Assembly (NCBI RefSeq): GCF_024734405.1
Contig: NZ_CP059556.1
Coordinates: 6,138,001 to 6,202,000 of the forward strand
From: Saccharopolyspora gregorii
GTDB taxonomy: Bacteria > Actinomycetota > Actinomycetes > Mycobacteriales > Pseudonocardiaceae
Direction: 5' to 3'
Length of the DNA stretch: 64,000 nt
The stretch's first letter is position 1. Each line of letters starts with the position of its first letter. The position numbers were made by a program, and so were the translations under genes. Under the pieces are notes generated by a model. That model did no database searches, was not told where the DNA came from, and saw only the letters and a program-made list of their open reading frames with translations. Below, piece by piece: positions 20,054 to 45,235 of this stretch.

Positions 20054-20200
20054 TCAGCGGCGGAGCCGCTGAGCAAACCACCTGAGCAGCGGAACCACCC
20101 GCGGGTTCTCAGCGGGATTCTCGCGAGGACAGCTTTTTCCCTCGTGGCGGAGCCACTCGGGAAAAAGGTCCCGCAGCGAGAATCCCGCTGAGGTTCCGCC
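20054..20200. repeat. Dispersed hairpin element, copy A
   Basis: A small hairpin TCAGCGGC-GGA-GCCGCTGA (20054-20072) is followed by a long one. Outer arms CTCAGCGGGATTCTCGC (20108-20124) and GCGAGAATCCCGCTGAG (20176-20192) pair at 17/17. An internal GAGGACAG/GTCCCGCA loop follows, then inner arms CTTTTTCCC/GGGAAAAAG, and a tip GTGGC-GGA-GCCAC. Related copies are at 36060 and 45054. This copy sits between the leader peptide and ssuA. Confidence 0.75.
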
Positions 20201-20248
20201 ACGCGAGCACGACGCGGAAAGAGTTCGAAGACAGGCCGGCGAGGACTC

Positions 20249-20329
20249 TCAGCGGGGGCGACAGATGGCGCTGGCCTGCCGCCGCAGATCGACGTGCAGG
20301 CGCCCGGTCAGTGCGGTGCGCGCGGTCAT
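20249..20329 (-). CDS. Putative 26-residue sulfur-gene leader peptide (uORF)
   Basis: ATG 20329 to TGA 20249 encodes MTARTALTGRLHVDLRRQAS followed by AICRPR. The core RLHVDLRRQASAICR matches the pattern of short actinobacterial 'putative leader peptides' (R-R/L-HVDL-xRxxSAICR) seen upstream of sulfur-assimilation and sulfonate operons, recalled from family knowledge. It is on the same strand as ssuA-ssuD, ~305 nt upstream of ssuA. The lone cysteine codon near the end would let ribosome stalling report cysteine supply. The hairpin element copy A lies between it and ssuA. A -35-like TTGACC lies ~35 nt upstream. No strong ribosome site is seen. Confidence 0.65.
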   Translation of the reverse strand: MTARTALTGRLHVDLRRQASAICRPR

Positions 20330-20408
20330 GCCCAGCAGGTTCGCACCGCCGCGATCTCCCGGTCAACGCCCGCCGGCCCGCGTCCCACCAGGTGGCACCG
20401 CAGCGGAA

Positions 20409-20439
20409 CGCCCCGCTCACCGAGGAGGTGAGCGGGGCG
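20409..20439 (-). terminator. 13-bp-stem hairpin downstream of the secreted nuclease gene
   Basis: Arms CGCCCCGCTCACC (20409-20421) and GGTGAGCGGGGCG (20427-20439) pair perfectly with a 5-nt loop, 15 nt past the stop codon. Confidence 0.75.
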
Positions 20440-20454
20440 CGGCGTCGACGACGA

Positions 20455-21093
20455 TCAGCAGCCGGCGAGGGCGTCCTTGAGGGCCGTCTTCTCGGCCTCG
20501 GTGACGGTCAGCTCGTACTTGTGCTTGGAACCGACCCACATCGACGCGTAGGTGCAGTGGTAGCCGGCTTCCGGCGGCATCCACTGGTCCGGGGTCTTGT
20601 CGCTCTTGGACTGGTTGACGCTGTCGGTGACGGCGATCAGCTGCGGGCCTTCGAGGTCGTTGGCGAACGCCTCGCGCTGCTCGTCGGTCCACTCGGAGGC
20701 CCCGGAGCGCCACGCGGCGGCCAGCGGCACCACGTGGTCGATGTCCACATCGGACGGCTTGGTCCAGGATCCGCCGTCGTACGGGCTGTTCCAGGTACCC
20801 GCGGTCGGGTAGCAGTCCGACCCGACCTCGACGCCCTCCCCGTCGCGCTTGAGCACCGACTCGCGGGTGTTGCAGCCGTCGGGGCCTTCGATCCAGTGCG
20901 GGAACCGGTCGCGGTCGTAGCCGTCGAGGGAACCTTCGGGGGCGACCTGCAGCTCGTCGAGCTGGGTCTGGGCGGTCGACGGGTCGGGGATGCCGGGCGG
21001 TTCCGCCCCGGCGGGCACGGCCAGGCCCAGCGACAGGGCGCCGGCCAGGGGCAGAGCGGTCAGTGCTGCGCGAAGCGAACGGGTCGGCGTCAT
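20455..21093 (-). CDS. Secreted HNH-family nuclease (GmrSD/DUF1524-like)
   Basis: The 212-residue precursor has a signal peptide (~1-30, LPLAGALSLGLAVPAGA). The C-terminal HNH-like fold contains DVDIDHVVPLAAAWRSGA (~120) followed by LIAVTDSVNQSKSDKTPDQW (~160), the arrangement seen in exported DUF1524/HNH nucleases of actinomycetes. Four cysteines may form disulfides. ATG 21093 follows GGAGG at 5 nt. It is a single-gene unit with its own terminator. Likely role is extracellular nucleic-acid degradation; no immunity gene is visible. Confidence 0.82.
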   Translation of the reverse strand: MTPTRSLRAALTALPLAGALSLGLAVPAGAEPPGIPDPSTAQTQLDELQVAPEGSLDGYDRDRFPHWIEGPDGCNTRESVLKRDGEGVEVGSDCYPTAGTWNSPYDGGSWTKPSDVDIDHVVPLAAAWRSGASEWTDEQREAFANDLEGPQLIAVTDSVNQSKSDKTPDQWMPPEAGYHCTYASMWVGSKHKYELTVTEAEKTALKDALAGC

Positions 21094-21260
21094 GGGGACC
21101 TCCGCTGGGCTGATCTCGCCGATGTCGATCCTGACCTTCATCGAGCGAGGTGGCCATGGCAATGCCCCGAACTGACTAGGCGGTGACCTGTCGTGAAACC
21201 GCCACCCGATCCCCGCCGGGTCTGGGAAAACCGTGTGTGCGCAGGGATTTCCACCGCCGA

Positions 21261-21968
21261 TCAGGGCCGCACGAGCAGCAGGTCCTCGGTGTGGCGGTAC
21301 CAGGCCCACTTGGTCACCGGCCGCGGGTGCGGCACGCCGTCGCGCAGCACGGTGGCCGCGCGGAACCCGGCCTGCACGGCGCGGCCGCGGGTGGTGTCCC
21401 GGCGGGCGCGCAGCAGGCCGCGGCGCACCGCGGTGACCCGCAGGCCGTCCGCGGCCGGATCGAGGTTCGCCGACATCGGGTCGGAGGTCGGGTCCGGCAG
21501 CGGTTCCGCCGCCGGATCGGGGGTGATCTCCAGGCTCCGCGCCGGGCCGTGCAGCACCCGCTGGTCGTCGCAGTACACCTGGCCGGTGATCGGTTCCACC
21601 CGGCCGGAGGCGATCAGCAGTCCGCCGTTGTCGTCGCGCACCAGCGCCGACGGCCGGGCCGCCCCCTCGAACGCGAGCGGCTCGGCGTCCGGGCCCACCG
21701 GGATCCCCCACAACCGGGTCGCGGGCGACTCCGCCACCGGCACGTAGCCGACGGCGAGGTCGGCGATGCGGTTCTTGCGCAGCAGCCGCAGCACCACCGC
21801 CGCCAGGTCGGCATCGGTACCCTGGACGACGACTCGCCCGGGGCCGTCGGGCAGCAGCGCATCGACCTCGGCCTTCCCGGGAGCGGGCGAAACCCGGTGC
21901 CACTCCGCGTGACCACCCGGACGCGTGGTGTGGTCGCCGTTTGTGCAGGACAGTGCAGTCGTACTCAC
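21261..21968 (-). CDS. Conserved hypothetical actinobacterial protein
   Basis: The 235-residue product from GTG 21968 has no signal peptide or TM helix. A recognisable stretch is GRVVVQGTDADLAAVVLRLL, then IADLAVGYVPVAESPATRLW (~48-92), which looks like an alpha/beta nucleotide- or lipid-kinase-like segment, but I cannot assign a family. The remainder (PITGQVYCDDQRVLHGPARS, then a Pro/Asp-rich loop) looks beta-rich. It is divergent from purA with 95 bp between the starts. Function unknown. Confidence 0.7.
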   Translation of the reverse strand: MSTTALSCTNGDHTTRPGGHAEWHRVSPAPGKAEVDALLPDGPGRVVVQGTDADLAAVVLRLLRKNRIADLAVGYVPVAESPATRLWGIPVGPDAEPLAFEGAARPSALVRDDNGGLLIASGRVEPITGQVYCDDQRVLHGPARSLEITPDPAAEPLPDPTSDPMSANLDPAADGLRVTAVRRGLLRARRDTTRGRAVQAGFRAATVLRDGVPHPRPVTKWAWYRHTEDLLLVRP

Positions 21969-21991
21969 GTTTCGCTCCTGGTTTACCCTGA

Positions 21992-23350
<1,359 letters not shown>

Positions 23351-23363
23351 CCCTGCCGCCGGG

Positions 23364-23388
23364 CCGGGCGGCGGTGCGCGCCGCCCGG
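23364..23388. terminator. Bidirectional hairpin between purA and the FUSC gene
   Basis: Arms CCGGGCGGCG (23364-23373) and CGCCGCCCGG (23379-23388) with a 5-nt loop lie between convergent stops. Confidence 0.65.
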
Positions 23389-23389
23389 T

Positions 23390-24490
23390 TCAGCTGTGGT
23401 CGTCGCCGCGGCGGGGGTGCAGGGGCGGCAGAGCCGCGATGGCCTCGGTGCGGGTGAGGCCGGTGGCCTGCAGCAGGTCGACCGCGATCGAGCGGACCTG
23501 CAGCACCACCACCTGCATCGAGAAGTCGCCCTCGCCGAGCAGTTCCACCGAGGACTTCCGCGCCACCGCGCGCGCCGCCTCCCGCGCCTGCAGCGGCTCG
23601 TTCCCGCCCGCGAGCTCGTCGCGCAGCAGCACCACCGACCCGGCCAGCTCCTCCAGCAGGCCCGGCAGCGGGCGCGGCACCGGCTCGTCGTCGCGCAGCG
23701 CCGACATGGCGCGCCGGGCCAGCACCCGGGTGTTGCGCAGCGCCCGGTCGATGGGCGTGGCCGCGGCCTCGTAGCGCTTCAGGTCGCCGCGGCGGCGCCA
23801 GCGGATCGGCGCGATCTTCGCGATCTCCCCGCCCGCGTCCAGCGCGGTCCGGAACTCGTCCACCAGCTCCTGGCTCTTGCGCACCTTCGCCAACGTGTCC
23901 GAGGCGACGTCGGTGTCCCGCCGCGACACCGCCCACGCCACGCCCCGCAGACCGTCGGTGAGCGCCCCCAGCACCAGCCTGCCGTTGCGGTGCGCCACCG
24001 CCAGCGGGTTCGCGGGCAGCAGCGCCGCCACCGCGAACCCGATCAGCCCGCCGACCGCCGCGTCGATCATGCGGGTCAGGCCGCCCGCCGAAGCCGGCGG
24101 TAGCAGCGTCGCCACCAGCACCGACGACGACGCGGCCTGCAGCACGATGATCGCCCCGCTGTCCGCGAGCACCGCCGTGCTCATCGCCAGCGCCACCACC
24201 AGCGCGATCTGCCACGGGCCGGTGCCGATCGCCGAGATCAGGATGTCGCCGACCCCGATGCCGATGCTCACGCCGACGACGAGCTCCAGCGCCCGCCGCA
24301 GCCGCTGCCCCAGCGACACGCCCAGCGACACCACCGCCGCGATCGGCGCGAAGAACGGCGCCGGGTGCCCCACCAGGCTCTTCGCCACCGCCCACGCCAA
24401 CCCGGCGGCGACGGCGCACTGCACGATCGGCACGCCCGACCGGAACAACCGCCGCAACCGCCGACTCAACTCCTGCCGAACCCGATGCAC
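23390..24490 (-). CDS. FUSC/aromatic-acid-exporter-like integral membrane protein
   Basis: The 366-residue product starts at GTG 24490 (GGAG upstream). Five to six TM helices lie in residues ~18-165: VPIVQCAVAAGLAWAVA, FFAPIAAVVSLGVSLGQRLR, VGVSIGIGVGDILISAIG. A cytoplasmic helical domain of ~190 residues follows. The PAPFFAPIAAVVSLGVSLGQR-type segment is characteristic of FUSC/ArAE-like half-size proteins, which are putative exporters of aromatic acids. Substrate unknown. It converges on purA. Confidence 0.78.
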   Translation of the reverse strand: MHRVRQELSRRLRRLFRSGVPIVQCAVAAGLAWAVAKSLVGHPAPFFAPIAAVVSLGVSLGQRLRRALELVVGVSIGIGVGDILISAIGTGPWQIALVVALAMSTAVLADSGAIIVLQAASSSVLVATLLPPASAGGLTRMIDAAVGGLIGFAVAALLPANPLAVAHRNGRLVLGALTDGLRGVAWAVSRRDTDVASDTLAKVRKSQELVDEFRTALDAGGEIAKIAPIRWRRRGDLKRYEAAATPIDRALRNTRVLARRAMSALRDDEPVPRPLPGLLEELAGSVVLLRDELAGGNEPLQAREAARAVARKSSVELLGEGDFSMQVVVLQVRSIAVDLLQATGLTRTEAIAALPPLHPRRGDDHS

Positions 24491-24729
24491 GCGCCCATTC
24501 TCCGCCACGACGATCGTGCAGCGGCAGCGGTGGGCCACGACGGCCGCCGGTTCGGGTCGATCGAGACCGGCCCGGTCCGGGCCGGTGCGGCGCACCGCGG
24601 GAACACCGAGGTAGCGGGTGGCCCAGGGGCGAGTTCGGGCGGTTCCGGGGGCCTGCGAGGAGCCCACGCCTTCGAGGCCGGCAGCGCCGCGCGGGAGGTC
24701 CCGGTTCCCCGGCCCTCCCGCGCGCGACG

Positions 24730-25137
24730 TCACGCCAGGCCGGTGGCTTCCACCGAGGCCGGGTCGCTGTCGAGCAGCAGCTGGCGGCAGCGGTCGAACT
24801 CGTCGGTCTCGCCGATCGCGCCCGCGGCCTTCGCCAGCACGGCCACGGCGCGCAGCACGCCCTGGTTGGGGCGGTGCCGCCACGGCACCGGGCCGAAGCC
24901 CTTCCAACCGGACCGGCGCAGCGCGTCCAGGCCCCGGTGGTAGCCGGTGCGGGCGTAGGCGTAGGCGGCGATGGTCTCGCCGCGCTCCAGCGCGGCCTCG
25001 CCGAGCTGAGCCCACGCGGCGCTGAAGGTGGGGTGCTCGGCGGCCACCAGGGCCGGGTCGGTGCCCGCGTCCAGCGCGGCCTGCGCGGCCTCGTTCTCGG
25101 GCAGCAGCGTTTCCGGTGGCTCCAGCAGGTTCGTCAT
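24730..25137 (-). CDS. DUF3151 domain protein
   Basis: The 135-residue soluble protein (ATG 25137) has MTNLLEPPETLLPE at the start and the conserved WAQLGEAAL, AYAYARTGYHRGLDALRRSGW and PVPWRHRPNQGVLRAVAVLAKAA blocks of DUF3151. The family is widespread in actinobacteria, often beside the fructose-bisphosphate aldolase gene, as here. Its helical TPR-like look suggests a binding protein, but no function is known. A hairpin separates it from fba upstream. Confidence 0.85.
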   Translation of the reverse strand: MTNLLEPPETLLPENEAAQAALDAGTDPALVAAEHPTFSAAWAQLGEAALERGETIAAYAYARTGYHRGLDALRRSGWKGFGPVPWRHRPNQGVLRAVAVLAKAAGAIGETDEFDRCRQLLLDSDPASVEATGLA

Positions 25138-25161
25138 GGCGCCATCTTGTCACCGGACGCG

Positions 25162-25194
25162 CGAACGCCACCCCGGTGGCCGGGGTGGCGTTCG
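25162..25194 (-). terminator. 14-bp-stem hairpin after fba
   Basis: Arms CGAACGCCACCCCG (25162-25175) and CGGGGTGGCGTTCG (25181-25194) pair perfectly with a 5-nt loop, 16 nt past the fba stop. Confidence 0.75.
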
Positions 25195-25210
25195 GCGATC
25201 GGTGCTGCGG

Positions 25211-26245
<1,035 letters not shown>

Positions 26246-26451
26246 CGGTCGTCCTCCTCGGGGGATGGAGTCGTTCTTGGCAGCGGGGAGCCGCGCCGAA
26301 TCCTACGAGGGCGCGCGAGGTCCGCGCGGGCCTGTGTCGGTCAGCGCTACCCGTTCGCGTCATAGGGAAAACCACTGGATCGGTGCGGATCGGCACCGCT
26401 GTCGGAATCCTCACACCTTCGGGGTGCGGGGTCGCCTGGACGGGTCAGCGC

Positions 26452-26733
26452 TCAGGAAACCCAGGAGCCGGTGATCGCGTGCCACTCACGGATCGTGGTC
26501 GACGCGAGCACCCCCTGCTGGAGGTACGGATCGGCGTCGAGCAGGCGCTGCACCGCCGCCTCGTCCTCGGCCTCGTACACCAGCTGCGCACCGAGGCCGT
26601 CCGCGTACGGGCCGCCGGCGAGCAGCACGCCCTGCTCGGCCAACGACTTCGCGTACACCCGGTGCTCCGGGCGCACCGCCAGCCGCCGTTCCTCGTCATC
26701 GCCGTAGACCATTTCGACCACGAACTTCGCCAT
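26452..26733 (-). CDS. YciI-like (dimeric alpha-beta barrel) protein
   Basis: A 93-residue ferredoxin-like protein with the YciI pattern: FVVEMVYGDDEERRLAVRPE, HRVYAKSLAEQGVLLAGGPY (conserved RxxH...GPY region) and ADPYLQQGVLASTTIREW. Such proteins are small possible enzymes or stress-linked proteins of unclear role. ATG 26733 follows GGAGG. It stands alone, divergent from the sigma factor gene 62 bp away. Confidence 0.8.
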   Translation of the reverse strand: MAKFVVEMVYGDDEERRLAVRPEHRVYAKSLAEQGVLLAGGPYADGLGAQLVYEAEDEAAVQRLLDADPYLQQGVLASTTIREWHAITGSWVS

Positions 26734-26794
26734 TTCGGACCTCCTCGATCACGGACCTCGCGCGGACGCTACCCGGCCGGGGGACAGCCGCCGG

Positions 26795-27391
26795 GTGAGC
26801 CGGTACTTTCAGATCATGTTCGGGGATTCCTCATCGGGGGTCGAGCGCAGCGTCGAGCAGACGCTGGGCCACCTCCGCGCCATCGACACCGCGTCCACGC
26901 CCAACGACCAGCCGCTCACGCTCGAAGACCTGTACCGCCAGCAGCGGATGCGCATGGTCCGGTTGGCGATCCTGCTGGTCGACGAGCCGGCGACCGCGGA
27001 GGACGTGGTGCAGGAGGCGTTCACCGGGCTCTACCGCAACTGGTCCGGGCTGCGGGACGCGAAGGCGGCGATCGGCTACCTGCGCACCGCCGTGGTGAAC
27101 GGCAGCCGTTCGGTGCTGCGCCGCCGCAAGACGGCTCGCGAGTACCAGCCGCCGCACCAGGCCGACGCGCGCTCCGCCGAGTCGCTGGCGATGCTGACCG
27201 CCGAGCACCAGGCGGTGGTGGCGGCGCTGGGCGAGCTGCCGCCGCGGCAGCGCGAGGTGCTGGTGCTGCGCTACTACGGCAACCTCACCGAAGCGGAGAT
27301 CGCGGAGGCCACCGGCGTGTCCAAGGGCACCGTGAAGTCCACGGCCAGCCGCGGCCTGGAGGCCCTGCAGAAGGTCATGCGCTCGCACTGA
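26795..27391 (+). CDS. SigE-family RNA polymerase sigma factor (second copy)
   Basis: The 198-residue product has sigma region 2 at ~45-105 (TLEDLYRQQRMRMVRLAILL, AEDVVQEAFTGLYRNW) and region 4 at ~140-195 (LPPRQREVLVLRYYGN, IAEATGVSKGTVKSTASRG). It also has a 40-residue N-terminal extension. GTG 26795 has GGGGGA upstream; ATG 26816 is an in-frame alternative. Unlike the sigma factor at 4.7-5.2 kb, no membrane anti-sigma gene is adjacent. The next gene (nagA) is ~380 bp away, so control must come from elsewhere. Confidence 0.87.
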   Translation: MSRYFQIMFGDSSSGVERSVEQTLGHLRAIDTASTPNDQPLTLEDLYRQQRMRMVRLAILLVDEPATAEDVVQEAFTGLYRNWSGLRDAKAAIGYLRTAVVNGSRSVLRRRKTAREYQPPHQADARSAESLAMLTAEHQAVVAALGELPPRQREVLVLRYYGNLTEAEIAEATGVSKGTVKSTASRGLEALQKVMRSH

Positions 27392-27773
27392 CCGCCCGTC
27401 CGCACCGATCACCGGTCACCCACCGCCGTGCGACCGCTGATCAGGTGAGCCGAGTGCGGACCGCGAGCAGCGGGCGCTCCCGCGCCGCGGTCACCGCACC
27501 GCCACCGCCATCGACGCGGAACCGGCGCCCGGCCGAGCCGGCGACCATCGAGATCACCCGATCCGCACCGGCCTTTCACCCGGATGCCGTCGCGTCCGCT
27601 CCACCGCGCGCCGCTCCGGGTGAAGACCACACCGAACTGGTGTAGACCACCGGAGGCCGGTACCGGAGGATGGGCGCCGGACGTCGACCACCGCACCCGA
27701 GCGCCGCCCGCCGCGCGGCGCAGCCCACCCCGCGGACCGCGGGACGAGGGCCGAACGAAAGTGGGGACCCCCC
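27392..27773. other. 382-bp gap with a DasR-type operator
   Basis: The gap between the sigma factor and nagA shows no supportable gene. Its one recognisable element is the dre-like site at 27636-27651; the rest is GC-rich sequence without a strong hairpin. Confidence 0.5.
27636..27651. promoter_or_regulatory. DasR-responsive element (dre) upstream of nagA
   Basis: ACTGGTGTAGACCACC matches the Streptomyces dre consensus ACTGGTCTAGACCACT at 14 of 16 positions and keeps the dyad. DasR is the GntR-type repressor of N-acetylglucosamine and chitin genes, released by phosphorylated aminosugars. The site is ~120 bp before the nagA start. Confidence 0.75.
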
Positions 27774-28922
27774 GTGAGCAGCGCGCACGACACCGGCGCC
27801 GGCACCCTCACCGCGAGCCGCATCGTCACCCCGGACGGCGTGCTGGCGGACGGCTGGATCCGGCTGTCCGGCAGCACCATCGCCGAGATCGGCACCGGCC
27901 CGGCCCCGGCGGACGCCACCGACCTCGGCGACGGCTGGCTGGTGCCCGGCTTCGTCGACGTGCACTGCCACGGCGGAGGCGGCGGCGCCTTCACCGGCCG
28001 CGACCTCGAACAGACGCAGGCCGCGCTGGCCGCGCACCGCTCGCACGGCACCACCACCATGCTCGCCAGCCTCGTCACCGCCCCCGTCCCCGACCTGGCC
28101 GACCAGGTCAGCGCGCTGCGCGACCTCGTGGTGGACGGCCTGATCGACGGCATCCACCTCGAAGGCCCCTTCCTGTCCGAGGCGCGCTGCGGCGCCCACG
28201 ACCCGGCGCTGCTGCGGGCCCCGGACCAGAGCTCGGTGCGCGCGCTGCTCGACGCGGGGCGCGGCTCGATCCGGATGGTGACGCTCGCCCCCGAGCTCGA
28301 CGGCGCGGTCGACGCGGTCCGCACCCTCACCGAGCACGGCGCCATCGCCGCCCTCGGCCACACCGACGCCGTCCGCGAGCAGGTGCTGCCCGCCGTCGAC
28401 GCGGGCGCCACCGTCGCCACCCACCTGTTCAACGGGATGCGCCCGCTGCACCACCGCGAACCCGGGCCGGTCGGCACCCTGCTGGACGACGACCGCGTCA
28501 CCGTCGAGCTCATCTGCGACCTGGTGCACCTGCACCCCGCCGTGGTGGCGTTCGCCGCGCGGCACGCGGGCACCGGGCGGACCGTGCTGATCACCGACGC
28601 GATCAGCGCCACCGGAGCCGGGGACGGGACCTACGAGCTGGGGAAGCTGCCGGTCACCGTGGTGGACGGGGAACCGCGGCTCGCGGACGGGTCGCTGGCG
28701 GGCAGCACGCTCACCATGGACGTCGCGTTCCGCAACCTCGTCACCGGAGCCGGGCTGCCCGTGACCGACGCCGTGCACGCCGCTTCGACCCGACCCGCCG
28801 AGCTGCTCGGCGCCGCGGACCGGGTCGGCTCGCTGCGCCCCGGCCTGGCCGCCGACCTGGTGCTGCTGGACGACGACCTGCGGCTGCGCCGCGTCATGAA
28901 GTCCGGAGCCTGGGTGGCCTGA
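27774..28922 (+). CDS. nagA: N-acetylglucosamine-6-phosphate deacetylase
   Basis: Converts GlcNAc-6-phosphate to glucosamine-6-phosphate and acetate in aminosugar use and cell-wall recycling. The 382-residue amidohydrolase has the metal motif VDVHCHGGGGG (~60), GIHLEGPFLSEARCGAHDP (~130, metal Glu), AALGHTDA (~197), HLFNGMRPLHHREPG (~220) and the catalytic Asp in LITDAISATG (~270). GTG 27774 is the start. nagB and PTS genes are not nearby. The dre site upstream supports DasR control. Confidence 0.94.
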   Translation: MSSAHDTGAGTLTASRIVTPDGVLADGWIRLSGSTIAEIGTGPAPADATDLGDGWLVPGFVDVHCHGGGGGAFTGRDLEQTQAALAAHRSHGTTTMLASLVTAPVPDLADQVSALRDLVVDGLIDGIHLEGPFLSEARCGAHDPALLRAPDQSSVRALLDAGRGSIRMVTLAPELDGAVDAVRTLTEHGAIAALGHTDAVREQVLPAVDAGATVATHLFNGMRPLHHREPGPVGTLLDDDRVTVELICDLVHLHPAVVAFAARHAGTGRTVLITDAISATGAGDGTYELGKLPVTVVDGEPRLADGSLAGSTLTMDVAFRNLVTGAGLPVTDAVHAASTRPAELLGAADRVGSLRPGLAADLVLLDDDLRLRRVMKSGAWVA

Positions 28923-28993
28923 CGCCCCCGGCACCCGCCCCGCCTCGCCCGACGCGTTCGGCGCCGGGCCGGGCGGTGGCTACCCTGGCTGGC

Positions 28994-29227
28994 ATGGAGA
29001 GCTCGCGGGACACCCCGGAAAACCTGTTGTCCGCCGCGCTGCGCGCGCAGGCGGTGGGCGGGCAGGCCGGGAACGCCGCCCCGACTCCGCCGCCGTTCCC
29101 GCCGCAGGCACCCCTCCCGCCGCCAGCGCCCGCGCGGCGCAGGCTGCCCGTCGGGCAGGTGCTGCTGTTCGCGGTGCTGCTGGGCGTCGCGGCGGGTGGC
29201 GTCGTCGGCGTGCTCACCCTCAGCTGA
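28994..29227 (+). CDS. Small proline-rich single-TM protein, function unknown
   Basis: The 77-residue product from ATG 28994 has a hydrophilic N-terminus (MESSRDTPENLLSAALRAQA), a Pro-rich stretch at ~30-48 and one C-terminal TM helix (VGQVLLFAVLLGVAAGGVVG). A tail-anchored topology with a cytoplasmic N-terminus is likely. It is not recognised as any named family. It lies between nagA and the DedA gene in the same direction. Confidence 0.65.
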   Translation: MESSRDTPENLLSAALRAQAVGGQAGNAAPTPPPFPPQAPLPPPAPARRRLPVGQVLLFAVLLGVAAGGVVGVLTLS

Positions 29228-29386
29228 TCCACCGCCACCACCTGCGCTTCCGGACGAACGGGACATCCCGTTCCGCCGCCGCGACGGCCGATCCGGCGGC
29301 CTCCGGCGTGGCGGCTTGCGCTGGGGCGGACGGCCGAGGTCGGGCTGGCCGCCCGCGCTCAGCGGGCACCGGTACCGTTGGCGAGC

Positions 29387-30070: not shown

Positions 30071-30086
30071 GCCACCGACCACCCCG

Positions 30087-30117: not shown

Positions 30118-30124
30118 CACGTCC

Positions 30125-31617: not shown

Positions 31618-31621
31618 GGGA

Positions 31622-34726: not shown

Positions 34727-34746
34727 GACCACAGGATACGCGGCAG

Positions 34747-34799: not shown

Positions 34800-34812
34800 C
34801 ACGAGGAGAGCC

Positions 34813-36039
34813 ATGACCACCCCGGAGCTCGCACTCGACCGCCCGCTGCGCGCGGGCACCGCCCGGCCGGAGATGACCCGGCGCGGCGCCTTCTGGTTCG
34901 CCGGCGCGCTGCTGGCCCTGTTCCTGATGGCCTCCACCGCGCCGTCCCCGATGTACGCGATCTACCAGCAGCGCTGGGGTTTCTCCGCGACGGTGCTGAC
35001 CGAGGTGTTCAGCGCCTACATGGTCGGCATCCTCGCCGCGCTGCTGCTGGTGGGCGCGCTGTCGGACCGGGTGGGACGGCGGCCGGTGCTGCTGGCCGCG
35101 CTCGGGCTGGAGATCGTCGCGGTGCTGTTGCTGGCGTTCGCGCCGGGCGTGGGCTGGTTGTTCGCCGGGCGCGCGCTGCAGGGCATCGCGACCGGCGCGG
35201 CGACGGGGGCGATCAGTGGTTCGCTGCTGGACTTCCAGCCGCCCGGCACCAGCCGCGGCGCCACCTTGAACGGGGTCTCCGCCGGGGCCGGGATGGCGCT
35301 GGGGTCGGGCCTGGCCGGAGCCCTGGTGCAGTTCGCGCCGGCGCCGACGGTGCTGGCCTACCTGCTGCTGGTCGCCGGGTTCGCGGTGGCGGTACCGCTG
35401 GTGTGGCTGATGCCGGAGCCGGTGCGCGGCAGCAGGCTCCCGCTGCGCGTGGCGCTGCGCCCGCAGCGGCCCGGGGTGCCCGCGGGGCGCGGCAGGGCGT
35501 TCGCGCTGCTGGCGACCACGATGCTCGCGGCCTGGACGGTCGGCGGCATGTTCATGTCGCTGGGCCCTTCGGTGGCGAAGAGCCTGGTCGACGGCTCGCC
35601 GTACCTGGTGGGCGGGCTCTCGGTCGTCGCGGTGGCTGGGGTGGGTGCGGTCGCGCAGCTGCTGCTGTCCGGGTGGCTGGGCCAGCGGGCCGTCCGGGTC
35701 GCGGCACCGGTGCTGATCGCCGGGCTGGCCGTGGTGGCCGGGTCGGTGCTCGGCGGGAGCGCCGTCGGTTTCTTCGCCGGGTCGGCGGTGGTCGGGGCCG
35801 GCTGGGGGATGATGTTCATGGGCGGGTTCCGGCTGCTCACCGGGCTGGCCGACCCGGAGAACCGGGCGGCGACCTCCTCGATGATCTACATCGTGGCGTA
35901 CCTGTCGGCGACGGTGCCGAGCATGCTGCTCGGCATCCTCACCACGTACGCGGGCCTGACCACGACGACCGTCGTCTTCGCCGCCGTGGCCGCCCTCTTC
36001 GCCGCCGTGGCCTGGCTCAGCACCTACGCCCGCCACTGA
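34813..36039 (+). CDS. MFS drug-efflux-type transporter (DHA1-like, 12 TM)
   Basis: The 408-residue protein has 12 predicted TM helices. Its loop 2-3 motif is LSDRVGRRPVLLAALGLE (~78), and the TM5 efflux-family motif region GVSAGAGMALGSGLAGALVQ is near 160. The TM1 region MASTAPSPMYAIYQQRWGFSA is typical of actinobacterial DHA1 exporters. Substrate unknown; regulation by the divergent TetR is likely. ATG 34813 follows GAGGAG. The hairpin element copy B lies ~20 bp past its stop. Confidence 0.86.
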   Translation: MTTPELALDRPLRAGTARPEMTRRGAFWFAGALLALFLMASTAPSPMYAIYQQRWGFSATVLTEVFSAYMVGILAALLLVGALSDRVGRRPVLLAALGLEIVAVLLLAFAPGVGWLFAGRALQGIATGAATGAISGSLLDFQPPGTSRGATLNGVSAGAGMALGSGLAGALVQFAPAPTVLAYLLLVAGFAVAVPLVWLMPEPVRGSRLPLRVALRPQRPGVPAGRGRAFALLATTMLAAWTVGGMFMSLGPSVAKSLVDGSPYLVGGLSVVAVAGVGAVAQLLLSGWLGQRAVRVAAPVLIAGLAVVAGSVLGGSAVGFFAGSAVVGAGWGMMFMGGFRLLTGLADPENRAATSSMIYIVAYLSATVPSMLLGILTTYAGLTTTTVVFAAVAALFAAVAWLSTYARH

Positions 36040-36059
36040 CCCGAGTCGTCCTCCCTGCC

Positions 36060-36210
36060 AGCGACGGAGCCGCTGAGCGGAGACCACGCACGCAGCAGGA
36101 CCCTCCGCGGGTTCTCAGCGATTCCCTCGCGAGGACAGCGATTTCCCCTAGAGCCACCGGTGAAATCGGTCCCGCAGCGAGGGAACCGCTGAGGTTCCGG
36201 CACCCGCCCC
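36060..36210. repeat. Dispersed hairpin element, copy B
   Basis: 5' hairpin AGCGAC-GGA-GCCGCT (36060-36074, one mismatch). Outer arms CTCAGCGATTCCCTCGC (36114-36130) and GCGAGGGAACCGCTGAG (36177-36193) pair at 16/17. The GAGGACAG and GGTCCCGCA internal-loop sequences match copies A and C, and inner arms CGATTTC/GAAATCG pair. The tip is shortened. It lies between the convergent MFS and clpB genes and could also act as a terminator. Confidence 0.72.
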
Positions 36211-36231
36211 CCGATCAGGCCGAGAAGACGG

Positions 36232-38814
<2,583 letters not shown>

Positions 38815-39115
38815 TCCTCCACCTCGCCGGGGCGTCGCGCGCGAGCCTCCATGCTCGCGCCGAGCGCCCGCCGTGCAACACCGGCGGAGGCCCCGGCGCG
38901 GCGGGCGAAACGGAACCTCCGCATGAAAGTTGAGTCCGTTGCGCTCAACCATACACCCGTCGCGGCCGACTGGGCATCCCTTCGGCCGTCCGCCCCGTTC
39001 CGCTCACCCGTTCGACGGGTTGCCGATCACCGCGGGTCACAAAACGGGGGCGAATTCACCCACTGGTCACCGAAAAGCATTGAGTCCCAATTGTCGCCTT
39101 GGTCCACTACCCGCC
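38815..39115. other. 301-bp divergent promoter region between clpB and the symporter gene
   Basis: It holds a HAIR operator (38930-38948) and otherwise no gene or strong hairpin. It is noticeably less GC-rich toward 39050-39110. Confidence 0.5.
38930..38948. promoter_or_regulatory. HAIR operator (HspR site) upstream of clpB
   Basis: Read on the clpB strand the site is TTGAGC-GCAACGG-ACTCAA, fitting the HspR inverted repeat CTTGAGT-N7-ACTCAAG at 11 of the 12 recognised arm positions present. Confidence 0.8.
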
Positions 39116-40705
39116 ATGCCCGACACATCCGGCCCGCCACCGGCGAGCCCGCTCCCGCACACCGAGGTGCTCGCCGCCGGGGACGGCGCGCTCTCCGCGG
39201 TCGAGAACACCATCAACACCGTCTTCGAGCCGATCTCCGACTGGTTCTCGAACCTCGTGTTCGGCGAACTCACGCTGTTCGGCGTCACGTTCCCCTGGAT
39301 CGTGGCCTGGCTGGTGATCGCCGCCGCCACGTTCACCGTCGCGTTCGGCTTCATCCAGTTCCGCTCGCTGGGCCTGTCGCTGGCGCTGGTCCGCGGGAAG
39401 TACTCCCGCCCGGACGACCCCGGCGAGATCACCCACTTCCAAGCGCTCTCCTCCGCGGTCTCCGCGACGGTCGGCCTCGGCAACATCGCCGGTGTCGGGG
39501 TCGCCGTCACCGTCGGCGGCCCCGGCGCGACCTTCTGGATGATCGTGTGCGGCCTGCTGGGCATGTGCACCAAGTTCGTCGAATGCACCCTCGGCGTGAA
39601 GTACCGCGACATCCACGAGGACGGCACCGTCTCCGGCGGCCCCATGCAGTACCTGCGCAAGGGCATCGCCGAACGGTTCCCCGGCGGCTTCGGCGCCCGG
39701 CTCGGCAAGGTGCTGGCCGTGCTCGCCGCGATCATGATCCTGTTCTTCGGCATCGCCGGGGGCAACATGTTCCAGGCGAACCAGACCTTCGCCCAGCTGC
39801 GCAACGTCACCGGCGGCGAGCAGGGCTGGCTGGGCGGGGACGGCGCCGCGCTCGTCTTCGGGCTGGTGCTGGCCGCGCTGGTCGGCGCCGTCATCATCGG
39901 CGGCATCAAGTCCATCGGCGCCGTCACCAGCAAGCTGGTGCCGACGATGGCGATCATCTACGTGGTGGCCTGCCTGATCGTGATCGGCGTGAACATCACC
40001 TCGGTGCCCGCCGCCCTCGGCGAGATCGTGCGCGGCGCGTTCACCCCGGCCGCCGGGTTCGGCGGGGCGATCGGCGTGCTGATCATCGGGTTCCAGCGGG
40101 CCGCGTTCTCCAACGAGGCGGGGCTCGGCTCGGCGCCGATCGCGCACTCCGCGGTCAAGACCCGGCACCCGGTGAGCGAGGGCTTCGTCGCGCTGCTCGA
40201 ACCGTTCGTGGACACCGTGATCATCTGCACCATGACGGCGCTGACCATCGTCATCGCCCGCACCGAGTTCTGGCTCGACGCGCAGCGGCAGGTGCTCGGC
40301 GGCGGGGAGACCCCGGACGGGGTCACCGTCACCTCCGAGGCGTTCGCGACCGTGCTGCCGTGGTTCCCGTACGTGCTGACGCTCGCGGTGGCCCTGTTCG
40401 CCATCTCCACGATCATCACCTGGGGCTACTACGGGCAGCGGGCGTGGCTGTTCCTGTTCGGCAAGTCCAAGGCGAAGGAGACCGCCTACAACGTGCTGTT
40501 CTGCGCGTGCACCGTGATCGGCTCGGTGCTGACGCTGACCAGCGTGCTCGACTTCGCGGACGCGGTGCTGTTCGCGCTCGCCCTGTTCAACATCATCGGG
40601 CTGTACCTGCTGCTGCCCGTGGTCAAGCGCGAGCTCCGGAGCTTCCGCGAGAAGCTGCGCACCGGGGAGGTGGCCCCGGTCGAACCGCCGGAGAAGGTGG
40701 GCTGA
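39116..40705 (+). CDS. Sodium:alanine/glycine symporter family (AGCS) transporter
   Basis: The 529-residue protein has ~10-11 TM helices. Family hallmarks are SAVSATVGLGNIAGVGVAVT (~113, the conserved amino-acid/Na+ site), GGPMQYLRKGIAERF (~170), FQRAAFSNEAGLGSAPIAHS (~325) and the ITWGYYGQRAWLFLFG segment near 435. It imports alanine or glycine with sodium. It is longer than the ~450-490 usual residues, mainly through a 50-residue N-terminal extension. ATG 39116 is the likely start; the 38-bp AT-richer sequence before it may hold the promoter. It is divergent from clpB. Confidence 0.92.
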   Translation: MPDTSGPPPASPLPHTEVLAAGDGALSAVENTINTVFEPISDWFSNLVFGELTLFGVTFPWIVAWLVIAAATFTVAFGFIQFRSLGLSLALVRGKYSRPDDPGEITHFQALSSAVSATVGLGNIAGVGVAVTVGGPGATFWMIVCGLLGMCTKFVECTLGVKYRDIHEDGTVSGGPMQYLRKGIAERFPGGFGARLGKVLAVLAAIMILFFGIAGGNMFQANQTFAQLRNVTGGEQGWLGGDGAALVFGLVLAALVGAVIIGGIKSIGAVTSKLVPTMAIIYVVACLIVIGVNITSVPAALGEIVRGAFTPAAGFGGAIGVLIIGFQRAAFSNEAGLGSAPIAHSAVKTRHPVSEGFVALLEPFVDTVIICTMTALTIVIARTEFWLDAQRQVLGGGETPDGVTVTSEAFATVLPWFPYVLTLAVALFAISTIITWGYYGQRAWLFLFGKSKAKETAYNVLFCACTVIGSVLTLTSVLDFADAVLFALALFNIIGLYLLLPVVKRELRSFREKLRTGEVAPVEPPEKVG

Positions 40706-40760
40706 CCACCCCCGACGTGCGAGAGGGGCGCTCGCCCCCGGCGAACGCCCCTGCTCACGT

Positions 40761-40788
40761 GTTCCGCCCGCCCCCGTGCGGGCGGAAC
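40761..40788. terminator. 10-bp-stem hairpin after the symporter gene
   Basis: Arms GTTCCGCCCG (40761-40770) and CGGGCGGAAC (40779-40788) lie between the convergent symporter and YceI genes. A weaker imperfect hairpin precedes it at ~40715-40760. Confidence 0.65.
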
Positions 40789-40849
40789 CTCCGCGCGGCC
40801 GCTCCGGCCCGGCCCCGTCCGGGATCCGGAGCGCCGCGAGGTCTCCGGC

Positions 40850-41698
40850 TCAGTCCTGTCGCACCGCCTGCACGTCGATGTCCACCCGCAGGGTGGTGCC
40901 GATCGCGGCGATGCCGGTGCGTAGCGCCTGGTTGAAGGTGATCGCGAAGTCCTCGCGCCGCAGCTCCGCGGTGGCCGACGCGGACGCCCGCGAACCGCCC
41001 CACGGGTCCGGCCCGACGCCCGCGTAGTGCGTGTCCAGCACCACCGGCCGCGTGACGCCGCACAGCGTCAGCTCACCGGCGAGTTCCCAGCGCTCACCGC
41101 CCGCGGGCCGCAGCCCGGTCGCGGTGAACGTGATCTCCGGGTGCTGCTCCACGTCGAGGAAGTCGGCGGTGCGCAGGTGCGCGTCCCGCTGCTCGTTGGC
41201 GGTGTCCACGCTGGCCGCGGTGATCCGCACCGCCACGCCCGTGGACTCGATCGGGTCGCCGACCCGGACCTCCCCGCTGAACTCGGTGAAGCGCCCGTGG
41301 ATGCTGGTGATGCCGAGGTGGCGGGCGCTGACCCGGATCGACGAGTGCGCCGGATCGATCACCCAGGTCCCCGGCGCGGGCAGCTCGTTGCCGCCCGCCC
41401 GGCTCAGCTCCAGCACGCCCAGCGCCGCCTCCTGCCCGTCCCGGACCAGCGTGGTCCGGGCCAGCGGCTCGTAGCCGAGGTTGGTGACGATCGCCGTGTA
41501 CGTGCCGGGTGCGAGCCCGCCGGCGACGGCGGCGCCGTCCTCCGCGGTCTGCACCCGCGCGGCCTGCGCGCCCGCCCCGTCGATGAGGGTCAACGCCGCT
41601 CCCGGCACCGGCCACCCGTCCCCGGTGCGCACCTGCGCCGTCACCGATCCGGCTCCGCTCACCTGCGTACCGCTCCTTCCGCTCCGCACCGCGGTCAT
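40850..41698 (-). CDS. YceI-family protein with N-terminal carboxypeptidase-regulatory-like domain
   Basis: The 282-residue product has two domains. Residues ~16-98 form a CarboxypepD_reg-like beta-sandwich (AQVRTGDGWPVPGAALTLID, AGGLAPGTYTAIVTNLGYEP), and ~105-280 a YceI lipocalin-like barrel (GTWVIDPAHSSIRVSARHLG, HLRTADFLDVEQHPEITFTA). YceI proteins bind isoprenoid lipids. There is no signal peptide, so it should be cytoplasmic. ATG 41698 is 2 bp after the MFS fusion gene's stop. The upstream protein ends with three domains of the same kind as this N-terminus. Confidence 0.85.
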   Translation of the reverse strand: MTAVRSGRSGTQVSGAGSVTAQVRTGDGWPVPGAALTLIDGAGAQAARVQTAEDGAAVAGGLAPGTYTAIVTNLGYEPLARTTLVRDGQEAALGVLELSRAGGNELPAPGTWVIDPAHSSIRVSARHLGITSIHGRFTEFSGEVRVGDPIESTGVAVRITAASVDTANEQRDAHLRTADFLDVEQHPEITFTATGLRPAGGERWELAGELTLCGVTRPVVLDTHYAGVGPDPWGGSRASASATAELRREDFAITFNQALRTGIAAIGTTLRVDIDVQAVRQD

Positions 41699-41700
41699 GC

Positions 41701-44337
41701 TCAGTGCCCCAATTCGACGTCGTGCGTGGTGCGCGCCCCGGCGAGCCGCAGCGGTGCCGCGACCGGCGGGTAGCCGGTGGCGATGACCGTGTAGTCCCCG
41801 TCGGGCAGGTCGGTGAACGCGTAGCCGCCCTCGGCGTCGGTGGTGACGGCGCTGACGACCTCACCGGCGGCGTCGAGCAGGGTGACCCGGGCGTCCGGGA
41901 CCGGCAGCCCCAGGTTCGCCGACCGCACCACGCCGGTCAGCGCGGCCCCCGCTTCCAGCTCCACGTCCAGCGCGACCCGCTCGCCGTCCGCGACGGCCAC
42001 CGGGGTGGCGACCGGGCGGAAGCCCTCGGCGGTGGCGGTCAGCGCGTAGGAGCCGCCGACGAGGTCGGTGAACGCGTAGCTCCCGTCCGGCCCGCTCGCC
42101 AGGGAGCCGACGACCTCGCCGCGCAGGTCGGTCAGCACCACGGTGGCCCCGGAGATCTCGCGGTCGCCGCAGTGCACGACGCCGCCGACCCCGCCGGACC
42201 CGAACATCCGCACGTCGTGGCGGACCGGCTTGTCGCTGACCACGACCATCGAGGCGGTCGGCTGGTACGTCCCGGCGGCCGCGATCAGCACGTAGGTGCC
42301 GCCGCGGGGGACGTCGAGCCGGTAGCCGCCGTCGGCGTCGGTGCGGGCGCGCTCGACCTGCCTGCCGAGCGAGTCGGTGAGGGTCAGCACCACCCCGGCG
42401 ACCGGGTTGCCGGTGGAGTCCTGCGCGGACCCCTGCACGTACAGCCCGCCGCCGCTCGTGCCGGCTCCGGCGAGATCGCCGGCCAGGTGCCGCCCGTTCC
42501 CGTTGCTCCCGGCGCTCGCTTGCGTCGTTGACCAGGAACGGGAGTGGTTGCCCACAGAGTTGTCCACAGGCTCGCCGAAGTGCGGTGCCGCCGCGTGCGA
42601 CCCCCCTGCAAGCTGCGCGGAACCACTCTGGCGGGTGAGCGGCGTCGTCTCCGCGCCGACCGAGTTGTCCACAGGAAGCGGTTGGTTATCCACAGTTTCC
42701 GCCCGGACTTCGTCTTGGGATTCGATGGTCCGCCGCAGCGGGACCTCCTTGATGAACACCACCGCCAGCAGCGTGATCACCGAGATGCAGGCGGAGACCA
42801 GGAAGATGTCACCGATCGCGTCGCCGTAGGCGGAGCGCACGATCTCCTGCATCGGGCCGGGCAGCGCGTCCACGTTCAGCGAACCGCCGCCCGCTCCGCC
42901 CGCGCCGACCGGGATGCCCATCCGCGCCAGGCCGTCGTTGACGTAGTCGGTGACCCGCGAGGCCAGCACCGCGCCCAGCACCGACACCCCGGCGGAACCG
43001 CCGAGCGTCCGGAAGAACGTGACGACCGAGGTCACCGAACCGACGTTCTTGCCGGTGGTGACGTTCTGCACCGTCAGCACCAGGTTCTGCATCAGCGAGC
43101 CGACGCCGATGCCCATCAGCGCCAGGTAGAACCCGATCAGCACGAGGTTCGTGGTGTGGTCCATGGTCGCCAGCAGGCCCATGCCGACCACGAGCACGAT
43201 CGAACCGAAGATCAGGAACGGCTTCACCTTGCCGCTGCCCCGGGAGATGATCTGCCCGGAGATGGTGGAGGACAGGAACAGCCCGAGCACCATCGGCAGC
43301 GTCATCAACCCGGCGTGCGTGGGGCTGAAGCTGCGGGCGATCTGGAAGTACTGCCCGAGGAACACCGACCCGCCGAACATGGCGGTGCCGACCGCGACGG
43401 TGCCGATGGTCGCCAGCGTCACCGTGGGGTTGCGGAACATGCTCAACGGCACGATCGGTTCCGGGAACCGCGATTCGATGATCATCGCGATGATCAGCGC
43501 GACCACGCCACCACCGACGTAGGCGGCGGTCTCCGGCGAGGCCCAGTCGAACTGCTTGCCCGCCATCGAGACCCACACCAGCAGCAGGCTCACGCCGCCG
43601 ACGAGGAACAGCGCGCCGAACCAGTCGATGCGCACCGGCCGCTTGATGACCGGCAGCTTCAGCGTGCGGCCGAGGACGATGAACGCGATCACCGCGATCG
43701 GCACGGTCACCCAGAAGCACCAGCGCCAGCCGAGCCACGAGGTGTCCACGATGAGTCCGCCGACGAGCGGCCCGCTGACCGTGGCGACCGCGAAGGTGGC
43801 GCCGATGTAACCGCTGTAGCGACCGCGTTCCCGCGGCGAGACCATCGCGGCGATCACGACCTGGATCAGGGCCTGCAACCCGCCCATGCCGATGCCCTGC
43901 ACGGCGCGGAACGCGATGAGCTGCGGCATCGTCTGGGCGAACCCGCCGAGCACCGAGCCGAGGGTGAACACGGTGATCGCGATCTGGTACAGCAGCTTCT
44001 TGCTGAACAGGTCGGAGAGCTTGCCCCAGATCGGGGTGGAGGCGGTGGAGGTCAGCAGCATCGCCGTGACCACCCAGGTGTACTGGCTCTGGCTGCCGCC
44101 GAGGTCGGACAGGATGCGCGGCAGGGCGTTGGACACGATCGTCGAGCTGAGGATCGCGACCAGCAGCGCGAGCATCAGCCCGGACATCGCTTCCAGGATC
44201 TGGCGGTGCGTCATGGGCGAGTCGGCGGCGACCTGGTGGCGGCCGCCGTCCCGGTGCGCGGCGGACTCGCCGTCAGCGGGCCGGCCGGTCGGCGGCGAGC
44301 TCGTCGACGGGGCTTCGCCGATGGTCGAGCGGGTCAT
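41701..44337 (-). CDS. DHA2-type MFS exporter fused to three carboxypeptidase-regulatory-like domains
   Basis: The 878-residue protein has a cytoplasmic tail (~1-45) and a 14-TM DHA2/EmrB transporter (~46-520; ALLVAILSSTIVSNALPRIL, GKLSDLFSKKLLYQIAITVF, YIGATFAVATVSGPLVGGLI). A hydrophilic linker (~530-625) follows, then three tandem CarboxypepD_reg-like sandwiches (~626-705, ~706-790, ~791-878), each with a GxYxFxDLxxGxYxLxATAxGY pattern. Ordinary relatives end after the TM bundle. With 14 helices the tail should be cytoplasmic. ATG 44337 overlaps the MarR stop by 4 bp. Four DnaA-box sequences lie in the linker-coding DNA. Substrate unknown. Confidence 0.87.
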   Translation of the reverse strand: MTRSTIGEAPSTSSPPTGRPADGESAAHRDGGRHQVAADSPMTHRQILEAMSGLMLALLVAILSSTIVSNALPRILSDLGGSQSQYTWVVTAMLLTSTASTPIWGKLSDLFSKKLLYQIAITVFTLGSVLGGFAQTMPQLIAFRAVQGIGMGGLQALIQVVIAAMVSPRERGRYSGYIGATFAVATVSGPLVGGLIVDTSWLGWRWCFWVTVPIAVIAFIVLGRTLKLPVIKRPVRIDWFGALFLVGGVSLLLVWVSMAGKQFDWASPETAAYVGGGVVALIIAMIIESRFPEPIVPLSMFRNPTVTLATIGTVAVGTAMFGGSVFLGQYFQIARSFSPTHAGLMTLPMVLGLFLSSTISGQIISRGSGKVKPFLIFGSIVLVVGMGLLATMDHTTNLVLIGFYLALMGIGVGSLMQNLVLTVQNVTTGKNVGSVTSVVTFFRTLGGSAGVSVLGAVLASRVTDYVNDGLARMGIPVGAGGAGGGSLNVDALPGPMQEIVRSAYGDAIGDIFLVSACISVITLLAVVFIKEVPLRRTIESQDEVRAETVDNQPLPVDNSVGAETTPLTRQSGSAQLAGGSHAAAPHFGEPVDNSVGNHSRSWSTTQASAGSNGNGRHLAGDLAGAGTSGGGLYVQGSAQDSTGNPVAGVVLTLTDSLGRQVERARTDADGGYRLDVPRGGTYVLIAAAGTYQPTASMVVVSDKPVRHDVRMFGSGGVGGVVHCGDREISGATVVLTDLRGEVVGSLASGPDGSYAFTDLVGGSYALTATAEGFRPVATPVAVADGERVALDVELEAGAALTGVVRSANLGLPVPDARVTLLDAAGEVVSAVTTDAEGGYAFTDLPDGDYTVIATGYPPVAAPLRLAGARTTHDVELGH
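42548..42694 (+). promoter_or_regulatory. Cluster of four DnaA-box sequences inside the MFS fusion gene
   Basis: Same-orientation nonamers TTGCCCACA (42548), TTGTCCACA (42560), TTGTCCACA (42665) and TTATCCACA (42686). TTGTCCACA is the actinobacterial consensus and TTATCCACA the E. coli consensus. They encode VDN/VGN tripeptides on the opposite strand and use codons rare here (CCT, ACT, GAT, CTT). A DnaA-titration or timing locus is possible; this is inference. Confidence 0.6.
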
Positions 44338-44885
44338 CGAGTTCCTTCCTGGGACGACGCGGCGGGGCGTCGGTCGTCGGCGGGCACCTGCGGCTGGGCC
44401 GGGTGCGAGGTTCCTTCGTGGGCCGCGAGGTGCTCGGGGAGCACGGCGCGGCGGAGGTCGGCGGCGGCGGTGTCGAGCAGTTCGGCCAGGTCGCGCACGC
44501 GGGAGTCGTCCCAGTCGCTGAGCGCGTGGCTGAGCCATTCGGCGCGGTGCCGCTCGATGCGGGCCAGCGCCTGCTCGCCTTCCTCGGTGGCGCGCAACAG
44601 GGACACCCGGCGGTCCTGCGGGTCGGCGCGGCGGGTGATCAGCCCGGCGCTTTCGAGCTGGGACACCTGCCTGCTGACCACGGACGCGTCGACGAAGCGG
44701 TGCGCGGCGAGCTCGGAGGCCCGCGATTCCCCGCAGTGCACGAGCTCGCCGAGGAGTCCGCTGGCCGCGTACGGCAGGTCGGTCCGGGCTTGCTGGTTGA
44801 GGATCTGCACCGCGGTCTGCTTGAGCCCCATCAACGCGCGGAGGGGCCGCAGCAGTTCGCTGCACGTTTCCGGTGTCGGTCCCAC
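44334..44885 (-). CDS. MarR family regulator of the MFS-YceI operon
   Basis: The 183-residue winged-helix protein has the MarR pattern: helix 1-2 dimer region, then ASVVSRQVSQLESAGLITRR (recognition helix and wing, ~68-88) and DRRVSLLRATEEGEQALARI. GTG 44885 was chosen because AAAGGAG sits 6 nt before it; an upstream GTG at 44909 overlaps the promoter. The stop overlaps the MFS start (ATGA). Two copies of AGTTGC-N5-GCAACT overlap its promoter, so it probably represses its own operon and is released by the exported compound. Confidence 0.87.
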   Translation of the reverse strand: MGPTPETCSELLRPLRALMGLKQTAVQILNQQARTDLPYAASGLLGELVHCGESRASELAAHRFVDASVVSRQVSQLESAGLITRRADPQDRRVSLLRATEEGEQALARIERHRAEWLSHALSDWDDSRVRDLAELLDTAAADLRRAVLPEHLAAHEGTSHPAQPQVPADDRRPAASSQEGTR

Positions 44886-44897
44886 GAGCCACTCCTT

Positions 44898-44944
44898 TAG
44901 TTGCTGCACGCAACTATAAAGAGGTTAGTTGCAGAAGGCAACTT
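44898..44944 (-). promoter_or_regulatory. MarR-type operators overlapping a sigma-70 promoter
   Basis: On the minus strand, TTGCCT (44941-44936), a 17-bp spacer and TATAGT (44918-44913) form a strong promoter. Inverted repeats TAGTTGC-N5-GCAACTA (44898-44916) and AGTTGC-N5-GCAACT (44927-44943) cover the -10 and the -35 respectively. Identical half-sites and spacing point to one dimeric regulator. Confidence 0.75.
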
Positions 44945-45053
44945 ATCCAGAAGTGGGACGCCCCACGCCGCCGCCGGGAATACCGCAGCCGGACGCCGAG
45001 CCGCGAGGGCTGCCTGCCTGGGAACCCGCCCGGCAGGTCATGTCCGTTGCCTG

Positions 45054-45235
45054 TCAGCGGCGAAGCCGCTGAGCAGAAAACACGCACGCAGCAGGACCAC
45101 TCGCGGGTTCTCAGCTGGTTCCTCGCGAGGACAGCGATTTCTCCTGTGGCGGAGCCACCGGTGAAATCGATCCCGCAGCGAGGAAGCAGCTGAGGTTCCG
45201 CCACCCGACCACCACGCAAAACGAGCCCGAAGAGA
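45054..45235. repeat. Dispersed hairpin element, copy C
   Basis: 5' hairpin TCAGCGGC-GAA-GCCGCTGA (45054-45072). Outer arms CTCAGCTGGTTCCTCGC (45110-45126) and GCGAGGAAGCAGCTGAG (45178-45194) pair at 16/17. Inner arms CGATTTC/GAAATCG and tip GTGGC-GGA-GCCAC also pair. The 3' flank (GAGGTTCCGCCAC and about 40 nt more) resembles copy A. It lies between two marR genes, in the otherwise gene-free stretch 44886-45242. Confidence 0.75.

Follow-up and report, generated by a model that had tools for sequence, protein, structure and literature searches.

A family of hairpin elements placed beside stop codons in Saccharopolyspora and related genomes, probably consisting of mobile DNA

Three copies of a two-hairpin element in the window

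The window, by which we mean the whole stretch of 64,000 nucleotides that was analyzed (positions 6138001-6202000 of the source genome, G000, a single contig of 6,344,421 bp), contains three copies of a hairpin element, all on the forward strand. Copy 1 lies at 20051..20208 (small hairpin 20054-20072, big hairpin 20101-20199), copy 2 at 36055..36209 (small hairpin ~36059-36075, big hairpin ~36107-36200), and copy 3 at 45051..45210 (small hairpin 45054-45072, big hairpin 45103-45201). A first-pass annotation had reported copies at these three positions, and a covariance model used for scoring, built from 32 copies including the window's own three, confirmed them with 177.1, 128.6, and 178.7 bits, respectively. 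Beyond these, the next model match in the window had an E value of 0.071, once matches to the complementary strands of these palindromes were set aside. The sole Rfam match at gathering score in the window was a tRNA gene at 61801-61871 (+ strand). The element itself had no Rfam match at gathering score, in agreement with the annotation, which knew of no named match; three sub-threshold hits were obtained in three loci. A literature search returned no description recognizable as this hairpin repeat family.

Copy 2 is flanked on both sides by stops, as the neighboring genes are convergent. One of these stops, about 20 bp away, ends a reverse-strand ORF (36232..38952) that by eye looks like ClpB. 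About 35 bp from copy 3 is the stop of another reverse-strand ORF (45243..45734), presumably a MarR-type regulator from its appearance by eye. The rule of stop-codon proximity described below does not hold for copy 1: the mechanically called reverse-strand ORF on its 3' side (20455..22002), whose start is provisional and whose last part looks by eye like an HNH-type nuclease, has its stop about 249 bp away.

Read in the orientation of the annotation, the element has a small hairpin with a GNA loop, followed by a linker and then by a long hairpin. The ends of the long hairpin are conserved (GGGTTCTCAG...CTGAGGTTCC) and are succeeded by six positions that are variable, yet paired; further inside, an asymmetric loop (GAGGACAG / ATCCCGCA) is conserved, the inner stem is variable, and the tip follows. 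The conserved asymmetric loops suggest that the element is recognized. When copy 1 was folded and compared with shuffled sequences, the z score was -7.4 and none of 200 shuffles folded as well. The annotation had described the small hairpin and the tip as present in each copy, which is accurate for copies 1 and 3; in copy 2, the small hairpin contains one mismatch and half of the tip is missing (TAGAGCCAC in place of GTGGCGGAGCCAC).

The element extends beyond the outline first drawn for it. Copy 1 carries candidate terminal inverted repeats (about GTCTTCGAAC), located by pattern search at 20016-20026 and 20221-20232, that is, ~30 bp beyond the small hairpin and 20-30 bp beyond the big one. 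By eye, the terminal inverted repeats are imperfect and about 12-20 bp long. A pattern allowing 2-3 mismatches recovered the left repeat in 14, the right repeat in 19, and both repeats in 5 of 98 copies. The whole unit measures about 190-235 bp. At three loci in two other genomes of the genus (L234, L254, and L257, in G004 and G003), arrays of short GCTTCGC-type hairpins stand in place of the element's tail, and from these exchanges the make-up of the family looks modular.

Copy number and distribution

The three window copies belong to a dispersed family. A core pattern (up to 3 mismatches) matched the 6.34-Mb source genome 125 times, whereas the reversed pattern gave no match at the same mismatch limit. 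The single orientation that had been noted applies to the three window copies but not genome-wide, where 66 copies are forward and 59 reverse. All six genomes of the genus carry the element, with 125, 38, 32, 353, 286, and 184 core-pattern copies (G000 included), and across the family it was present in 73 of 297 genomes, representing 16 of the 46 genera sampled. Among the matches listed, the carriers were mainly Saccharopolyspora species, together with Amycolatopsis bartoniae and Labedaea rhizosphaerae. Searches of plasmids and phages with copy 1 as query, and of viral contigs with an exact pattern, gave no match. Copies occasionally occur close together: among the matches listed, S. rosea has tandem copies 185 bp apart (L052, L068, and L091), and G000 has an inverted pair 171 bp apart (4180332- and 4180503+; L191).

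Placement beside stop codons

The position of the element relative to genes was examined for the 98 of 125 source-genome copies that had been retrieved with flanks, using genes called by our own script. None of the 98 lay inside a called gene, as the annotation had stated for its three intergenic copies. The gene at the element's 3' end points toward the element in 83 of the 98 (56 convergent and 27 tandem arrangements); the remaining arrangements account for 12 and 3 copies, the last being divergent gaps. In 71 of the 83 stop-facing copies, the stop codon is located 15-45 bp from the element, while uniform placement within the same gaps put a mean of 23.5 and a maximum of 40 copies in that interval over 5000 runs. 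Convergent gaps made up 55 of 97 gaps with an element, compared with 31 of 246 without. This placement behind stop codons is a new point that the annotation had missed.

Given that the stop faces the element, the natural reading is on the reverse strand, with the stop codon first and the element after it. Scanned in this direction, 79 of 97 copies had an in-frame stop within 140 nt, and in 64 of 97 the stop preceded a fixed point in the element by 33-49 nt, a range picked after inspecting the histogram; 38 of these 64 fell at 40-44. The stop was TGA in 75 of the 79 called cases. A similar placement was seen in other genomes. In G003, 34 of 44 copies with both neighbors called face a stop. In G001, a stop was called for 25 of 37 copies, 10 of them at an offset of 40-42, corresponding to the junction seen at locus L282 when its empty site was read. 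Among the matches listed, stops at 33-49 were found in 24 of 43 copies of G003, 12 of 23 of NFXS83, 3 of 3 of Amycolatopsis bartoniae, and 1 of 2 of S. soli, with weaker placement in S. rosea (6 of 20); copies without the anchor point were left out of these counts (6, 3, 0, 1, and 19, respectively), and no copy from Labedaea or S. spinosa was usable.

Two explanations for the crowding at stops have to be weighed. It is quite possible, if short of probable, that the element inserts at random at TRA-like triplets and that copies at all other places have been selected away. The predominance of TGA among the called stops and the rarity of the element in divergent gaps (3 of 98 copies, compared with 78 of 246 element-free gaps being divergent) speak for this. 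However, in element-free gaps, only 203 of 956 TGA triplets (21%) and 136 of 400 YTGA sequences (34%) are stop codons, compared with 66% of the copies, and within their own gaps the copies crowd at the stop beyond what uniform placement gives. We tentatively entertain, as the other explanation, transposition that homes to stop codons, either through the enzyme itself or through a link with replication or with transcription-unit ends. Such homing, if true, would amount to a general safe-harbor strategy that leaves proteins unbroken, used by a family of elements that occurs in 16 of the 46 genera sampled from one bacterial family. Insertion aimed at stops would let a parasite build up hundreds of copies among densely packed genes while doing little damage, and the enzyme behind it would have a target rule that could be put to use.

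Class C group II introns are likewise found in fixed orientation at the ends of transcription units. The element resembles them in this respect and differs in that no intron domains were recognized in it and in that it stands before the apparent terminator. At several sites, by eye, the element is located between the stop codon and a seemingly native terminator-like hairpin downstream.

Pairing of the arms

The pairing of the arms covaries strongly. Outer-arm pairing of 17/17, 16/17, and 16/17 had been given for the three window copies, and reading the sequences bore this out. The signal persisted with more copies: in the 32-copy alignment, standard pairs occupied 99.0% of pair cells, and 94 cells were changed on both sides, compared to 27.8 +/- 5.6 in shuffles (0 of 500 shuffles as high). 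Pairs with a change on both sides numbered 10, against 7.6 in shuffles (2/500). The count of further pair types was within the range of the shuffles (129/500), while the other four of the five measures beat nearly all of them.

We also compiled an alignment of 109 copies from several genomes, drawn from 88 loci, by aligning the best 150 of 198 matches and removing 39 overlapping opposite-strand rows and 2 duplicates. Many positions in it show three or four Watson-Crick types. Its 4864 pair cells comprise 4361 Watson-Crick, 292 G-T, 46 A-C, and 165 other combinations, counts that lean toward structure because the alignment was fitted to the model. Two fixed pairs hold 204 of the 292 G-T cells, and the remaining 88 include 31 at one pair. 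This scarcity of G-T and A-C intermediates argues, short of proof, for a DNA palindrome, perhaps one in which one arm is copied from the other, rather than for an RNA. Copying of one palindrome arm from the other is a known mechanism. The pairing data fit such copying as well as they fit stepwise selection, and the annotation's statement that compensating changes imply selection on the structure was therefore too strong.

Occupied and empty sites

The element comes and goes between related genomes; gain and loss look alike at an empty site. The flanks of all 38 copies in G001 were found in G002 at 95-100% identity. By core pattern and pairing by hand, 29 copies were shared and 9 were not matched, while 3 copies were found by pattern only in G002. 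Two of the 9 are clean empty sites, corresponding to inserts of 195 and 194 bp, and three more lack the element but have altered or unusual junctions. Another three are internal deletions, one of which removed almost exactly the long hairpin, and in the last case the element is present but diverged. In the locus pairs L277/L296 and L268/L300, approximately the whole long hairpin has been deleted between near-identical strains, with the small hairpin left behind.

For a comparison with two congeners, we sampled every third of the 69 source-genome sites whose stop-facing gene exceeds 450 bp, which gave 23 sites. In both G003 and G004, flanks were read for 20 of the 23; of the other three, one gave no match by its flanks and two were outside the fetched DNA. 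In a profile search, the element was absent from both congeners at 14 of the 20 sites, although at one of these (site 13) G004 retains an end-only remnant (L230). The element was present at 4 of 20 sites in G004 and at 4 of 20 in G003, where one copy is partial and three of the four are in the opposite orientation. The stop codon was at the same place at 18 of 20 sites in each congener, indicating that the stop either was there before the element or persists after the element is lost. Where the window has copy 2, nothing but a plain GC hairpin stands in G003; the element in G004 has different arms, and in G005 a diverged element-like sequence lies in the opposite orientation.

These comparisons bear on the two identities that the annotation had offered, of which the repeat family stands, with its 125 copies, empty sites, and mostly unshared locations, and the structured RNA is not favored. 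A structured 3'-UTR RNA maintained by selection, which would end, stabilize, or stall at the messenger of the abutting gene, would agree with stop-proximal placement on one strand, with the strong pairing, and with the enrichment at ends of transcription units in convergent gaps; by eye, a T run also follows the long hairpin in some G004 copies. We nevertheless consider this RNA improbable, and have set it aside as the main reading because most sampled sites are not common to the congeners and there was no Rfam match at gathering score. The internal hairpin deletions in three copies of a 99% relative, the terminator-like hairpin downstream at several sites, and the rarity of G-U outside the two fixed pairs also speak against it. 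The narrower idea of an intrinsic terminator was provisionally set aside: by eye, the G000 consensus has no T run behind the hairpin, though some G004 copies have one, and terminator-like hairpins lie further downstream at several sites. The family adds a long hairpin to the 3' ends of a great many messengers in bacteria among which are antibiotic producers, and this may matter for expression.

Our preferred reading is that the element is probably non-autonomous mobile DNA, MITE- or REP-like, that is inserted just 3' of a stop-like triplet and moved in trans. A putative enzyme would move the ~190-235 bp unit and insert it just 3' of a TGA/TAG/TAA-like triplet, usually a gene's stop, with one fixed end toward the gene. 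Insertion there would spare the protein and, at several sites, the native terminator downstream. The enzyme may recognize the palindrome once it extrudes at the replication fork, where the DNA is single-stranded, with the stop-like triplet itself serving as target, and the pairing of the arms may be kept in part by arm-from-arm copying.

Replication strand

Seven parS-like sites (up to 2 mismatches) are clustered at 6337775-6340992 in G000, near the contig end, and their position at 6.338-6.341 Mb places the origin near the contig ends; the terminus was assumed to be at the midpoint. On this basis, the sense strand was co-directional with the fork for 72 of 98 copies, compared to 301 of 504 called genes, so part of the co-directionality is due to gene orientation. 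In convergent pairs, where a stop is available on either strand, one replication strand was still favored (39 of 56, p = 0.0046). This strand bias could stem from higher expression of leading-strand genes.

Candidate movers and related systems

The element shares with REP/BIME sequences and their TnpA-REP (RAYT) transposases the character of a high-copy intergenic palindrome. ORFs that flank GTAG REPs often take their stop codon from the end of the REP (PMC3733652). The element is longer than a REP, at about 190-235 bp, and consists of one big and one small hairpin with candidate terminal inverted repeats; the REP definition, a palindrome of 20-40 bp with GTAG or CGTC at one end, does not describe it. 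Membership in the RAYT/REP system was rejected, as no REP-type transposase (REP_Tyr_transpos, NF047646) was found in any of the six genus genomes. We conclude that this is a real, large, and mobile hairpin family of the REP/MITE kind, unusual in that it occupies sites directly after stop codons with no known REP transposase in the genus genomes searched.

With some reserve, we put forward HUH chemistry on single strands, as in IS200/IS605 or REP systems, as a candidate mode of movement; it would entail a fixed motif on the 5' flank, subterminal hairpins, preference for the lagging strand, and no duplication of the target. The ends of IS200/IS605 elements bear subterminal hairpins and have a short target flank, and the lagging strand is used (PMC6006769). 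The element is similar in its subterminal hairpins and in its preference for one replication strand in convergent pairs, and by eye its 3' end is often CTAG, whatever the 5' flank. It also carries GNA triloops on the element strand; such triloops are stable in DNA. Carriage was somewhat commoner in genomes with a Y1_Tnp (PF01797) domain, which was detected in 61 of 297 family genomes (21 of 61 with the domain and 52 of 236 without it, counted by hand). However, Y1_Tnp was absent from G000, G003, G004, and G005, the four genus genomes with the most copies (125 to 353), and there was one in G001 and two in G002. In addition, none of the 30 Y1_Tnp loci that were fetched and examined had an end-only match, and a duplication of 3-6 bp would likewise fit the two clean empty sites.

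Bacterial MITEs such as ERIC, RUP, Correia, and NEMIS provide the other comparison. The element is similarly short, non-coding, and dispersed, with candidate imperfect terminal repeats and occupied and empty sites, but it differs in that one fixed end faces stop codons and in its long, variable but paired arms; furthermore, no parent IS was found among the families searched (Y1, REP-type, and IS630). Derivation from a DDE insertion sequence of the classical sort, perhaps IS5-like, that has a CTAG-like target and makes a 3-4 bp duplication is possible, though less likely than not. The target of IS5 is of the CTAG type, and the imperfect terminal inverted repeats seen by eye and the TAG on both sides of several G001 copies agree with such a parent. 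Against it, DDE_3 (IS630), the DDE family covered by the search, was found in G005 only and in none of the other five genus genomes, and no autonomous copy was recognized in 2.1 Mb of fetched DNA. When 363 sequences were searched with end models, there were 42 end-only matches, but the transposase loci L312, L315, and L333-L362 held none of them. IS630 with a TA target, suggested by the first junctions, was set aside on the same absence of DDE_3 from five of six genomes.

The junctions themselves permit more than one reading of the target. A k-mer test for target duplication gave values within the range of shuffled pairs. CCTAGG and CCTA are shared at the two clean empty sites. The 3'-end triplet was readable in 6 copies, and in 5 of the 6 the same triplet also occurs within the 14 nt scanned at the 5' junction; others differ by eye. 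At two contig ends of G001 (L267 and L270), the same foreign sequence is joined to the element arm at the identical base. This junction was not found in the two G002 stretches examined, and the joins look as if an insertion sequence had used the hairpin as its target.
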